Positions 16,577-20,904 of a stretch of 64,000 nt of DNA are shown here, piece by piece. The stretch lies in NCBI RefSeq assembly GCF_947077765.1, contig NZ_CAMTTF010000003.1, positions 124,001 to 188,000 on the forward strand, written 5' to 3'. The stretch comes from Salinibacter grassmerensis. Its GTDB lineage: Bacteria > Bacteroidota > Rhodothermia > Rhodothermales > Salinibacteraceae. A program made the translations under genes and the position numbers. The notes beneath the pieces were generated by a model, which was not told where the DNA came from, ran no database searches, and saw only the letters and a list, made by a program, of their open reading frames with translations. Position 1 is the stretch's first letter. Each line of letters opens with the position of its first letter.

Positions 16577-18166
16577 ATGGCGCCTTCCATCTCCGACCTC
16601 AAGGACGCCCTCTCCGCCCCCGCTGCCTACCCGCACGACCCGGACCGGATCCAGTTCGAGCAGACCCACATCTCCCTGGTCGCCCTCGCCCCGCCCCAGG
16701 TGTACAAGATCAAGAAGCCGGTCTCGCTCAAGTACCTCGACTTCTCGACCCTGGAGCGGCGGCGGCACTTCTGCGAGCAGGAGGTCCGCCTTAACCGTCG
16801 CCTCGCCCCCGACACGTACGAGGGGGTGGTGCCCATCGTGGACACCGACGCAGGCCTCCGGGTAGACGGCGACCCAGACGCAGGGCCCGTCGTGGAGGTG
16901 GCCGTGGCGATGCGCTACCTAGACCCGGATCAGTTTCTCGACGCCCGGCTGGCCCGCGGGGCCGCGTCGGCCGCCGACATCGACCGGGTCGTGCGTACCC
17001 TCTGCACGTTTTACGAGTCGCGCTCCTCGACGCCCGAGGTGGCGGAGGCGGGCCGCATCGACCGGCTGCGATCGGTGACGGAGGGGAATTTCGCGGAGGC
17101 GGAGGGGCACGTTGGCCACCTGCTCTCGCGCCCGGCCCACGAGGCGCTCCGCTTCTATGCCGACCGCTTCTACGATCAGCACGCCGCCCGCCTCCACCGA
17201 CGCCGGGCTGGGGGATGCATCGTGGAGGGCCACGGCGACCTGCGGCTGGAGCACGTCCACCTCACCGACGACCGCGTCGCCATCTTCGACTGCGTGGAGT
17301 TCAACGACGAATTTCGGCACCTCGACGTGGCCAACGACGTGGCGTTCCTGGCCATGGACCTCGACCGCAAGGGGCACCCGGACCTCGCCCGGCGTTTCGT
17401 GAACCGGATGGCGGAGGGATTGGACGATCCGGGGCTGCCCACGGTAATCCCCTTCTACAAGAGCCAGCGGGTCCAGGTGCGGGGGAAGGTGCACGGGCTA
17501 CGGGCCAACGAAGCGGAGATCCCCCCGGCCGAGCGGGACCGCAGCCGCGCCCAGGCCCGGCACTACTACCAGCTGGCCCTCCACTACGCCGTGGCGGGCC
17601 CCGAGCCGCTCGTGGTGGTGGTCATGGGCCGCCCCGGCACCGGCAAGAGCACCCAGGCCGAGGCGGTGGCCCGCGCCCTGGGCTGGCCCCACCTCGCCTC
17701 CGACCGCATCCGCAAGGCCCACGCCGGCGTCCCCCAGCACGGCCGGCCCGACGCCGCCACCCGCGAGCGCCTCTACACCGACGCCGCGACGGAGGCCACC
17801 TACGCCACGCTCCGCACCCGTGCCCTGCAGCGGGCCCGCCGCCACCAAAGCACGGTGCTCGACGCCACCTTCAGTCGCCCCGCGCAGCGCGACAGCCTCC
17901 GGACCGCCCTCCGCGCCGCGGACGTGCCGTACGTGTTCGTGGAGGTGATCGCCGGGGACGGGACCCTCAAGAAGCGCCTGCGCGAGCGCTCCGCCAAGGA
18001 CGCCACGGCCTCTGACGCCCGGGCCACCGACTTCGAGATGCTCACGGACCGCTACGAGGCGCCCACCGCCCTGGAAGACCCGCGTCACGTCCGTGTCGGG
18101 ACCGAGGGCGCCCCCGACCAGACCACACTCGACATCCTGAAGACGCTAATTCGGCTGGCGGACTGA
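16577..18166 (+). CDS. Bifunctional phosphotransferase-like / P-loop ATPase protein
   Basis: A 529-residue fusion. Residues 1-320 resemble aminoglycoside phosphotransferase/choline kinase folds, with a catalytic-loop-like EGHGDLRLEHVHL and a metal-site-like IFDCVEFNDEFRHLDVANDVAFLAMD. From about residue 345 a zeta-toxin/AAA-type P-loop domain follows, with Walker A GRPGTGKST. This architecture is known as a conserved 'aminoglycoside phosphotransferase/ATP-binding' family of unknown substrate; it is not evidence for antibiotic resistance. The start at 16577 lies four bases after the fadJ stop; a start at 16514 would overlap fadJ. Confidence 0.82.
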   Translation: MAPSISDLKDALSAPAAYPHDPDRIQFEQTHISLVALAPPQVYKIKKPVSLKYLDFSTLERRRHFCEQEVRLNRRLAPDTYEGVVPIVDTDAGLRVDGDPDAGPVVEVAVAMRYLDPDQFLDARLARGAASAADIDRVVRTLCTFYESRSSTPEVAEAGRIDRLRSVTEGNFAEAEGHVGHLLSRPAHEALRFYADRFYDQHAARLHRRRAGGCIVEGHGDLRLEHVHLTDDRVAIFDCVEFNDEFRHLDVANDVAFLAMDLDRKGHPDLARRFVNRMAEGLDDPGLPTVIPFYKSQRVQVRGKVHGLRANEAEIPPAERDRSRAQARHYYQLALHYAVAGPEPLVVVVMGRPGTGKSTQAEAVARALGWPHLASDRIRKAHAGVPQHGRPDAATRERLYTDAATEATYATLRTRALQRARRHQSTVLDATFSRPAQRDSLRTALRAADVPYVFVEVIAGDGTLKKRLRERSAKDATASDARATDFEMLTDRYEAPTALEDPRHVRVGTEGAPDQTTLDILKTLIRLAD

Positions 18167-18248
18167 GGCGGTCCGCAGGGCGCCCTCCGTACCGTTTGGC
18201 TTGATCCGTACGACGAAAATCCGTAAGGTGTCTCGACGCAGGAGGATC

Positions 18249-18402
18249 GGCATAACGTTGTTATGTGGATCGGTTCGGCATAATGCTTCTGTTGATTTTA
18301 TAACCTACAGGGAGGCAATTATTTGTCACAATTCGAGACCCGTATTATGCCGATCGGCATAATGTGATATGGCGGAATGGATCCATATAAGATATATTAT
18401 AG
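18249..18402 (+). repeat. attC-like site 0
   Basis: The R''-like box GGCATAAC is at 18249-18256. The region just inside it (TTATGTGGATC at 18261-18271) is inversely repeated near the far end (GATCCATATAA at 18380-18390). The predicted crossover is A18396|T18397, immediately before the HNH cassette. No cassette gene precedes it, so it is either an orphan attC or the array edge. The expected G at the crossover is an A. Confidence 0.55.
18344..18363. repeat. Perfect 20-base palindrome inside attC-like site 0
   Basis: ATTATGCCGATCGGCATAAT is a perfect palindrome. Its halves match the array's own boundary sequences (ATTATGCC at 19334-19341, GGCATAA at 19716-19722). It may be a nested attC half-site, a regulator-binding site for the cassette genes, or the scar of a lost cassette. 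Confidence 0.6.
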
Positions 18403-18423
18403 CGCCAGATCTGTGCTGATGTA

Positions 18424-19155
18424 ATGAACAAACATGGACTATCTCGCACGATACCAGCTCAAGTAAAGCGAGAAGTACGCAGGGCCTGTGGTTTTGGATG
18501 CGTTATCTGTGGGACAAGCATTATTGAGTACGAGCATATCGATCCTCCATTCGCAGAAGCAAAAGAGCATGACCCTGACAAGATTGCGTTGCTGTGCCCT
18601 CAGTGCCATGCAAAAGTGACTAGAGGTTTTTGGTCGAAACAAGCAGTCAAGGAGGCAAGGCGCGATCCACACTGTCTCAAAGAGGGGTACGCGAGTGAGT
18701 TCATTGATGTCGGGCGACAACATCCCAAGATAGAGTTTGCCGGCGTTACACTTGTTGAGTGTGATATACCTGTTCAGGTCGGTGAGAAACCTCTTTTTCA
18801 AATCAAGGAAGCTGAAGAAGAGGGTGGACCATTTCGGTTGAGTGCAAATTTTTCTAACTCAAACGGGAAGACTAGTTTACAGATAAAAGATAATGAATGG
18901 AGGGTATTTACCGGAAATTGGGACGTTGAAGCAGTAGGAGGTACCATCACCATTCACGATGCTCCCGGTCAAATTTCACTTCAGCTCTCAATATCAGGCC
19001 GTGACACGGTTGCGGTTCAAAAACTCGACATGAAGCTAAACAGAATGCATTTTCATGGGAATACAGATAATCTCATAGTCGAATCCCCTGATGGCAGAAA
19101 TTTGAGTTTAACTAATTGTATTGCTAGCAACTGCCATATTGGCCTGGCCCTATAA
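18424..19155 (+). CDS. HNH-type zinc-binding protein with C-terminal beta-rich domain (cassette gene 1)
   Basis: A 243-residue protein. Residues 22-70 form an HNH/His-Me finger: CxxC at 26 and 29, the EHIDP motif with His38, and a second CPQCH cluster at 58-62. This is the layout of HNH nucleases, where the EH pair supplies the catalytic His. Residues 100-243 are predicted beta-rich, with repeated short hydrophobic strands, and match no family I recognise. The gene starts 28 bases after the cassette boundary. Its TAA stop is embedded in the R'' box of the next attC, common in integron cassettes. Base composition is clearly AT-richer than the flanking genes. Nuclease activity and any role in defence are inferences. 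Confidence 0.8.
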   Translation: MNKHGLSRTIPAQVKREVRRACGFGCVICGTSIIEYEHIDPPFAEAKEHDPDKIALLCPQCHAKVTRGFWSKQAVKEARRDPHCLKEGYASEFIDVGRQHPKIEFAGVTLVECDIPVQVGEKPLFQIKEAEEEGGPFRLSANFSNSNGKTSLQIKDNEWRVFTGNWDVEAVGGTITIHDAPGQISLQLSISGRDTVAVQKLDMKLNRMHFHGNTDNLIVESPDGRNLSLTNCIASNCHIGLAL

Positions 19156-19341
19156 CACTTCCACTACACCTGAACCCGGGCTGCTGCCGCTTTCAAGCGG
19201 TTCCGGTAAGGCAGTTCGACTTCGCTGATCGAGAGTGGCCATGCAAACGAATGGATACTTCGTTGTACGTTTCAGTTCGAGCGGCACTGAGAGCAACTGA
19301 ACAGTTCCTCGCCCGGGTCGGGTGAGTTTCGTCATTATGCC
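19146..19341 (+). repeat. attC-like site 1
   Basis: Begins with GGCCCTATAAC (19146-19156), complementary to the HNH cassette's first bases TTATAGCGCC at 18397 with one mismatch. The stem CACCTGAACCCGGGC at 19168-19182 pairs imperfectly with GCCCGGGTCGGGTGAG at 19312-19327. The central part holds a second hairpin, CCGCTT/AAGCGG (19187-19200). Predicted crossover A19334|T19335. At about 190 bases it is longer than most attC sites. Confidence 0.62.
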
Positions 19342-19350
19342 AACTCGCGC

Positions 19351-19617
19351 GTGACAATGAGGTCGACACTTATCTCAGTCCCTGTTTTTAAACTTCTCTC
19401 TACGATGCAGAATCGGTTCATCAGTGCGTGGATTGGTGTTCTTATTTACAAAGCGATCGCCTGGTTAATTTCCCCAGAGGCTTACGCGTGGAGTGACGAG
19501 CCGCTTAGGGCGCTTATCATTGCATTTTTTGTGACAGCGGTTCTAGAGATACAAGACTGGTGGCTCAGCGAGAGCAATACCACGGACAGTAAGGTCGAGT
19601 CCAGTGAGGCAATTTAG
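19351..19617 (+). CDS. Small membrane protein (cassette gene 2)
   Basis: An 88-residue protein starting at GTG 19351 or, as likely, ATG 19357, only 16-22 bases after the predicted cassette boundary. Two hydrophobic stretches are visible, the first about residues 22-42 and the second about 52-68, ending in a short polar tail rich in Ser/Thr/Glu. No family is recognised. About 100 bases without a gene separate its stop from attC-like site 2. Cassettes usually lack their own promoters, so expression may depend on upstream transcription. Confidence 0.55.
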   Translation: MTMRSTLISVPVFKLLSTMQNRFISAWIGVLIYKAIAWLISPEAYAWSDEPLRALIIAFFVTAVLEIQDWWLSESNTTDSKVESSEAI

Positions 19618-19715
19618 CCACAGGAGGCCGTACGAAAACGAGCGCAACTTCTCACCCGAATGGACAACTTAAGATAGGAGGATTCCGTGGATATCGGAAA
19701 GTTGAAGCAGAGCAC

Positions 19716-19845
19716 GGCATAACTCTCTATGTAGCTGACGAAAAGCGCGGGCCGTTTTGCCTCGTTGGTCCGAAGGGCGCGCTTCCTCTGCTCTATTCAG
19801 GTGATGTGCCGCGACTTTTCGCAAGCTAATCTACGCCGTTATGCA
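19716..19845 (+). repeat. attC-like site 2
   Basis: About 130 bases, a standard attC size. The R'' box GGCATAAC (19716-19723) is exactly complementary to the start of its own cassette (TTATGCC at 19335, after a G). Internal arms TAGCTGACGAAAAGCGCGG (19732-19750) and CCGCGACTTTTCGCAAGCTA (19809-19828) pair with small bulges. The right end is CCG|TTATGC, with the canonical crossover G19838|T19839. Confidence 0.75.
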
Positions 19846-19865
19846 GACGACATAATCTCCCCATC

Positions 19866-20321
19866 ATGACCGGCTCTCGTTATTTTCTACTTTTCGTTCT
19901 TGGAGCTTACATGCTTGTGGCAACTAGATGTGACTCTAGGAGGACTGCTGGGAGCTGCCAGGTAGAGTGGAAAGATCCGCTACTTCGTATCACAGAGGGT
20001 AAAGGCACAAGCTCGGGTGAATCGATTCCCGAGCTAATACTGACCGACATAACACGGGACGGATCAGAAGTGCGGGTTCCTCTACTATCCCTTCGCTCAG
20101 GAGCGACAGCCTTGAACGAAGATAGCCTCCGCTGCTCAATTCCTTGCGGGTTTGCTAATGACGAAGGCGAGTATGCTTTTGTGGTTTCAGCTGAGGACTA
20201 CCAGTCCAAAGAGGTCAACCTTGGAGAGGTAGAATACGACGAACGGGAAGAAAGAGGCCCCTGTCCAGCCATTATATTTCGGGGAAGTCAAGAAGTGCAG
20301 ATTTCACTTTCAAAAAAATAG
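19866..20321 (+). CDS. Secreted or membrane-anchored small protein (cassette gene 3)
   Basis: A 151-residue protein with an N-terminal hydrophobic segment (about residues 6-20) followed by ATRC. That is a poor lipobox because Arg precedes the Cys, so lipidation is uncertain. The mature part is acidic, with Cys pairs (about residues 22/31 and 89/93) and beta-strand patterns, resembling a small periplasmic or surface domain. It starts 27 bases after the cassette boundary and ends three bases before attC-like site 3. No family is recognised. Confidence 0.6.
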   Translation: MTGSRYFLLFVLGAYMLVATRCDSRRTAGSCQVEWKDPLLRITEGKGTSSGESIPELILTDITRDGSEVRVPLLSLRSGATALNEDSLRCSIPCGFANDEGEYAFVVSAEDYQSKEVNLGEVEYDEREERGPCPAIIFRGSQEVQISLSKK

Positions 20322-20323
20322 CG

Positions 20324-20452
20324 TCTCCATAACCCTCGATGTAGCTGACAAAAAGTCCAGGCCGTTTTGTCCTCCTGAGATGAAAGTTGCATCTTGTGCT
20401 TAAGCAGTCCATGTGCCACGACTTTTCGCGAGCTAATTTCCGCTGTTGTACG
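20324..20452 (+). repeat. attC-like site 3
   Basis: A 129-base relative of site 2: both contain ATGTAGCTGAC, a GGCCGTTTTG segment, a CACGACTTTTCGC-like segment and AGCTAAT. The R'' side TCTCCATAAC (20324-20333) matches the complement of its own cassette start (TTATGCAGA at 19839) with one mismatch. The right end is GCTG|TTGTACG, crossover G20445|T20446. What lies beyond is not a recognisable cassette. Confidence 0.72.
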
Positions 20453-20904
20453 GCGTAAATCTTCACTTTCCCATCACTAGAGTGTCAGGAGCCTCCATGC
20501 GTCGCGCATGGCTTTCCCACTCTTGACTTTGTTGAACCCCTTTCCATATCAGTGCGCTCGCCTGTGACCTTCTCCATGCCAATTCCGAGCAGGACCCAGT
20601 CTTTGGCTGCAGGCAGGCGTTCGGGACAGGGCGAGGTGCTGGTGCCACGATCTCCTCGACGCCGCAGAGTGAACTGTCAGACCTCGGGCTCAGGGGACGT
20701 AAGGACCCCGAATGCTGCGTCCTTGTGGGACCTCCCCGCAGCCAACTCGATGCGGCACGCACCGGACCGCGCCTGGCGTTCGCGGCCCGTGATGGCCAGT
20801 CGAGATTTTCGACGACCGTTGAGCGGGCACGACCGGAATTGCTTTCCGAATCTCTTAGAGACCGCGTGCAGGCCCAACGGCAATGGCGCTGTGGGTCGCA
20901 TCCC
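20453..20904. other. Gene-poor flank of the cassette array
   Basis: About 450 bases without a convincing gene. A hairpin CCATGCG-TCG-CGCATGG lies at 20495-20511. Minus-strand frames between 20465 and 20660 read like coding text interrupted by a frameshift (for example PAAKDWVLLGIGMEK, then GKAMRDAWRLLTL in another frame), as in a decayed gene. No R'' box complementary to the next predicted cassette end (TTGTACGGC) was found, so the array appears to stop here. Confidence 0.35.

Follow-up and report, generated by a model that had tools for sequence, protein, structure and literature searches.

A probable remnant of a lineage-B integron in Salinibacter grassmerensis: three attC-ended cassettes behind an attI-type leader, without an integrase

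A short insertion between two conserved genes of Salinibacter grassmerensis carries three gene cassettes, with an attC site at the end of each, and is most readily explained as the remnant of an integron of Salinibacter lineage B that has lost its integrase but retained a promoter-like sequence and an attI site (attI_B); we put the probability of this reading at roughly 0.85. The window, that is, the whole 64-kb stretch analyzed here, corresponds to G000:C3:124001-188000 in a genome of 3.78 Mb. The earlier note on this DNA had correctly described the host type, which is Salinibacter, and had proposed an integron cassette array without a neighboring integrase. This holds, with three attC sites and no intI nearby, but the array is headed by an attI. 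The insertion as a whole, its leader, and its tail are as follows.

18179 to 20904, plus strand: whole insertion relative to related genomes, ~2.7 kb
18201 to 18229, plus strand: putative cassette promoter Pc, TTGATC - 17 nt - TAAGGT, with 7 of 12 consensus bases
18249 to 18396, plus strand: predicted attI_B, with repeated GGCATAA boxes, a recombination point at 18396|18397, and homology to intI_B-linked leaders
20446 to 20904, plus strand: orphan tail past the last recombination point, 459 bp; candidates are a truncated cassette or the old right flank of the integron

The insertion is flanked by two convergent genes, one ending at 18166 and the other, an isochorismatase-like gene on the minus strand, extending from about 20905. 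The same flanking genes are separated by just 24 bp in G004 and 30 bp in G005, where the insert is absent, and short gaps of 10–76 bp were also found between them in G002, G003, G006, and G011. The GC content is 44–51% in the leader and cassettes and 61% in the tail, compared with 67–71% in the flanks. Near matches of the window on plasmids came only from S. ruber, and other Salinibacter genomes have genes and sites in common with it; the tail had no relatives in plasmids or in the 12 related Salinibacter genomes. In G007, the same intergenic gap is occupied by another cassette (L116, G007:C5:49000-52300, positions 1051-1925), encoding a nucleotidyltransferase/HepT toxin–antitoxin-like pair with an attC site (1735-1925, E 8e-8) and followed by a DUF433 gene. 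A short attI_A-like core precedes this cassette, with a weak match (E 0.001 in a 420-bp search). The gap is possibly a preferred spot for cassettes, or it may once have been the home of an ancestral integron.

The attC sites were identified with models that were independent of the window. The seeds came from the contig C1 array that adjoins the intact intI, and the profile models were extended on loci from related genomes and plasmids, with the window sequence excluded; attC-like sites were also searched for without a prior model. A covariance model (R1), built from 26 Salinibacter attC sites, none of them from the window, detected three attC sites within the 64 kb of the window and no other match up to E = 10.

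19150 to 19340, plus strand: attC1, long type, about 190 nt, R'' CTATAAC ... R' ATTATGC; covariance model 47.1 bits, E 2e-9; nhmmer profile 19159-19338, plus strand, E 8.5e-38
19717 to 19844, plus strand: attC2, R'' GCATAAC ... R' GTTATGC; covariance model 71.3 bits, E 1.9e-15; nhmmer profile 19718-19842, plus strand, E 4e-28
20327 to 20451, plus strand: attC3, R'' CCATAAC ... R' GTTGTAC; covariance model 49 bits, E 6.6e-10; nhmmer profile 20328-20441, plus strand, E 4e-22

Under R1, all three sites have the R''-L''...L'-R' architecture, and this structure is backed by covariation. Specifically, 87.9% of the cells in the R1 structure were paired, compared with 76% in shuffles and 31–45% in slid controls, and 69 cells were doubly changed, versus 23 after shuffling, a level that 0 of 500 shuffles reached. 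An unpaired, extrahelical base in the L stem is expected of attC sites. Column 23 of R1, which lies unpaired between the paired columns 22 and 24 in the L'' arm, is an A in 26/26 sites, and the window sites carry the same A at the aligned position. When the bottom strand of attC2 was folded as a single strand, both the R and L stems formed. In single-strand folding, the energies of the window sites were unexceptional (z -1.35 to +0.16); the case for attC relies on the alignment models. A search of Rfam at gathering thresholds gave no match. The proposal that sites 2 and 3 share internal arms was borne out by the D1/D2 repeats (86%).

The earlier note had taken four repeats for attC sites. Three of them are the sites above, whereas the first, at 18249-18396, gave no attC model match and belongs to the leader. 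Leaders homologous to the sequence at 18193-18400 are present in other genomes and plasmids of Salinibacter; these leaders end in ...TAAGATAT|GTTA and are then followed by unrelated cassettes. G004 and G012 each have an intact, divergent intI_B with the leader immediately upstream of it. At 8/8 of the intI_B loci that were examined, whether intact or broken (L011, L042, L043, L044, L045, L051, L055, and L061), a B-type leader was recognized, either in an alignment or from its visible core. The intI_A loci, in contrast, have a different leader, mostly ending in TGATATAATTRTAG|GTTA. Because B-type leaders accompany intI_B and another type accompanies intI_A, the window leader is assigned to attI_B, and the first repeat is, as judged from its sequence, an attI-type site of lineage B. 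The attI_B core pattern was absent from viral contigs. A motif of the form TTGA(T/C)N-17-TAnnnT occurs at the position of Pc in 9/10 aligned leaders. A generic promoter and terminator scan did not rise above chance and did not flag the Pc hexamers; a promoter function of Pc is presumed from the motif and its placement.

The recombination points divide the array into three cassettes, for which own-end pairing was scored as the match between the first 10 bases of a cassette and its own R'' arm.

18397 to 19334, plus strand: cassette 1, 938 bp, between attI_B and attC1; own-end pairing 9/10
19335 to 19838, plus strand: cassette 2, 504 bp, A|TT at 19334 and G|TT at 19838; own-end pairing 7/10
19839 to 20445, plus strand: cassette 3, 607 bp, G|TT at 19838 and 20445; own-end pairing 9/10

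These values confirm the across-gene complementarity between R'' and the start of the same cassette that had been noticed in the letters, and a test across 43 Salinibacter cassettes agrees with them. At positions 5-10, beyond TTAT, the R'' arm paired with the start of its own cassette at 4.65/6 positions, compared with 2.23/6 for the start of the next cassette and with a mean of 2.58 and a maximum of 3.21 among 10,000 random re-pairings. Such own-end pairing is the mark of circular intermediates. The junctions also read as predicted, with G|TT at both 19838 and 20445, and A|TT at 18396, the attI point, as well as at 19334. Among the listed attC sites of the genus, the ATT reading was seen only in attC1 of the window, and the following T varies in a few others; the attI_B relatives, when aligned through the junction, have a G where the window has an A (18396). 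The occurrence of A instead of G at both recombination points around cassette 1 suggests decay, and this cassette is probably hardly mobile now, because neither of its points carries the G.

The genes of the three cassettes are all encoded in the same orientation.

18424 to 19155, plus strand: gene of cassette 1, 243 aa, with its stop codon within R'' of attC1
19351 to 19617, plus strand: gene of cassette 2, 88 aa, a small hydrophobic, membrane-type protein
19866 to 20321, plus strand: gene of cassette 3, 151 aa, with a lipoprotein-like N-terminus and a lipobox, LVATRC, recognized by eye

The cassette 1 protein matches the phage family phrog_6544 (E 2.8e-77) and has an N-terminal HNH-type zinc motif, for which the match to Pfam HNH (E 4e-4) fell just short of the cut-off. 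Homologues are carried by plasmids of distant bacteria, including one that is 47% identical on a plasmid of Pseudomonas luteola. No copies of the gene were found in the other 12 Salinibacter genomes, and the homologues in other phyla had no adjoining attC sites under the Salinibacter model. The AlphaFold prediction made without an alignment was uninformative (pLDDT 33). The cassette 2 protein matched no family over the cut-off; a relative in G001, 47–48% identical, likewise adjoins attC sites. The cassette 3 protein had no family match and was absent from all other Salinibacter genomes searched.

As the earlier note had stated, the window contains no integrase: tblastn gave no match for intI, and the closest tyrosine-recombinase match on contig C3 was weak and >60 kb away. 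The wider search for intI that the note had recommended revealed one intact and three decayed integrons elsewhere in the genome.

G000:C1, about 892800-903340: complete integron with an intact lineage A intI
G000:C4, 184395-185249 (L015): interrupted intI; a single attC-like site lies on the opposite strand
G000:C1, 83158-84254 (L103): decayed integron, with an N-terminal intI fragment and a leader remnant
G000:C2, 237044-239173 (L104): decayed integron, with an N-terminal intI fragment and a leader remnant

The sole intact intI of the genome (G000:C1:902390-903337) encodes a protein scoring 436 bits against a cut-off of 265 and is accompanied by about 13 attC-like sites on the strand opposite to intI; L103 and L104 have 2–3 attC sites each. 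The loci on C4, at 83 kb on C1, and at 237 kb on C2 form a decay series within one genome. Across the genus, two integrase lineages can be distinguished, A and B, which are about 57% identical, and the attI types follow these lineages. AttC-like sites were found in 13/13 Salinibacter genomes (the genome-wide counts are lower bounds, with 150 candidates scored per genome), and an integrase above the cut-off was found in 10/13.

Platforms in which attI_B lacks an adjacent intI were found at four places with different surroundings: the window, the S. ruber plasmids pSR10 (strain M1) and pSR61 (strain M8), and contig C85 of G008. In both plasmids, the attI_B leader is followed by cassettes. The two share a 291-bp leader that is 94.5% identical and reaches to the attI recombination point. 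They also have 29 bp in common from the last attC recombination point on, whereas the cassettes between these points differ.

L009, 608-898 and 2430-2457: stretches shared by pSR10 and pSR61
L010, 3909-4199 and 4824-4852: the same stretches in the other sequence

The similarity itself ends slightly beyond the leader and, on the right, after the 29 bp. Cassette exchange at the predicted boundaries, which the earlier note had proposed to look for in related strains, was thus observed at a related platform but not at the window locus, where no single-cassette gain or loss is visible in the genomes compared, since the cassette genes have almost no counterparts outside this genome.

If the locus is a lineage-B remnant, each cassette would have entered via IntI-mediated recombination of a folded bottom-strand attC with attI_B or with a neighboring attC, Pc would read into cassette 1, and intI_B would have been lost by a deletion with its break just upstream of the promoter, leaving an array that could now be moved only by an integrase acting in trans. 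For clusters of attC sites lacking an integron-integrase (CALINs), the origins proposed so far are three: off-target insertion, intI loss, and rearrangement (PMC8618304). The attI_B that still heads the array argues for the loss of intI or for rearrangement. In the first of the three, an IntI from elsewhere, such as that of the C1 integron, would have put circular cassettes one by one into an attG-type site between the conserved genes. An intact IntI is indeed available in trans, and the G007 cassette in the same gap means that this spot has received cassettes at least twice. However, cassette 1 is preceded by ~200 bp of promoter-like sequence and attI_B, homologous to intI-linked leaders, and a plain target site would bring no attI, so we regard this route as very unlikely here.

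The integrase-loss reading has its own difficulties, in that no intI remnant adjoins the window leader and the 459-bp tail is left unaccounted for. The platform may instead have arrived without intI, as the counterparts in pSR10, pSR61, and G008 would allow. Indeed, integrase-less promoter–attI_B platforms dispersed over chromosome and plasmids might move as units and serve as expression docks that are filled and emptied by integrases in trans, consistent with the different surroundings of the four platforms and with the exchanged cassettes of the two plasmids, whose boundaries lie at recombination points. On the other hand, mobilizing ends were not found, attI_B and attC1 of the window lack the G at the recombination point, and attI types track integrase lineages, whereas the intact integrase of this genome belongs to the other lineage. 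We therefore consider such platforms an improbable, although not a far-fetched, explanation of the window. Chance inverted repeats, or other repeats such as terminators or REP-like elements around ordinary genes, would fit the unexceptional folding energies of the window sites taken alone, but are refuted by the window-free profile and covariance models (E <=2e-9), the genus-wide covariation, and the pairing of R'' with its own cassette.

The array resembles a CALIN, as defined by IntegronFinder, in its three attC sites of the same orientation without intI nearby; CALINs have been reported with at least two attC sites (PMC9024848). It differs in starting with a recognizable attI and a promoter-like sequence, which are not required of a CALIN. 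The C1 integron contains the same attC families, 75–88% identical to the window sites over 110–180 nt, but differs in its attI type, in its intact lineage A intI, and in having about 13 attC-like sites. Likewise, pSR10 and pSR61 share with the window the homologous promoter–attI_B leader, the absence of intI, and the cassettes that follow, but differ in their cassettes, right flank, and plasmid location. A complete integron was named in S. ruber M1 with IntegronFinder 2.0, in one sentence that gives neither site sequences nor lineages (PMC9024848); it represents the same genus and overall system, whereas the window is a separate, integrase-less locus. The word "integron" is absent from the main text of a study that dealt with genome variation within S. 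ruber (PMC6060240).

Integrons are thus general in Salinibacter, where they form two lineages that differ in attI type, yet they have hardly been described, the literature found on them amounting to one sentence on one strain. The anatomy of the present array, with its attI retained, indicates which of the proposed routes to a CALIN produced it, namely the loss of intI. Also of interest are the integrase-less attI platforms scattered in the genus and the plasmids pSR10 and pSR61, with different cassettes between the same two boundaries. Because Salinibacter offers both natural series of decaying integrons and plasmids whose cassettes have been exchanged, integrase loss and the action of integrases in trans are testable in this genus.
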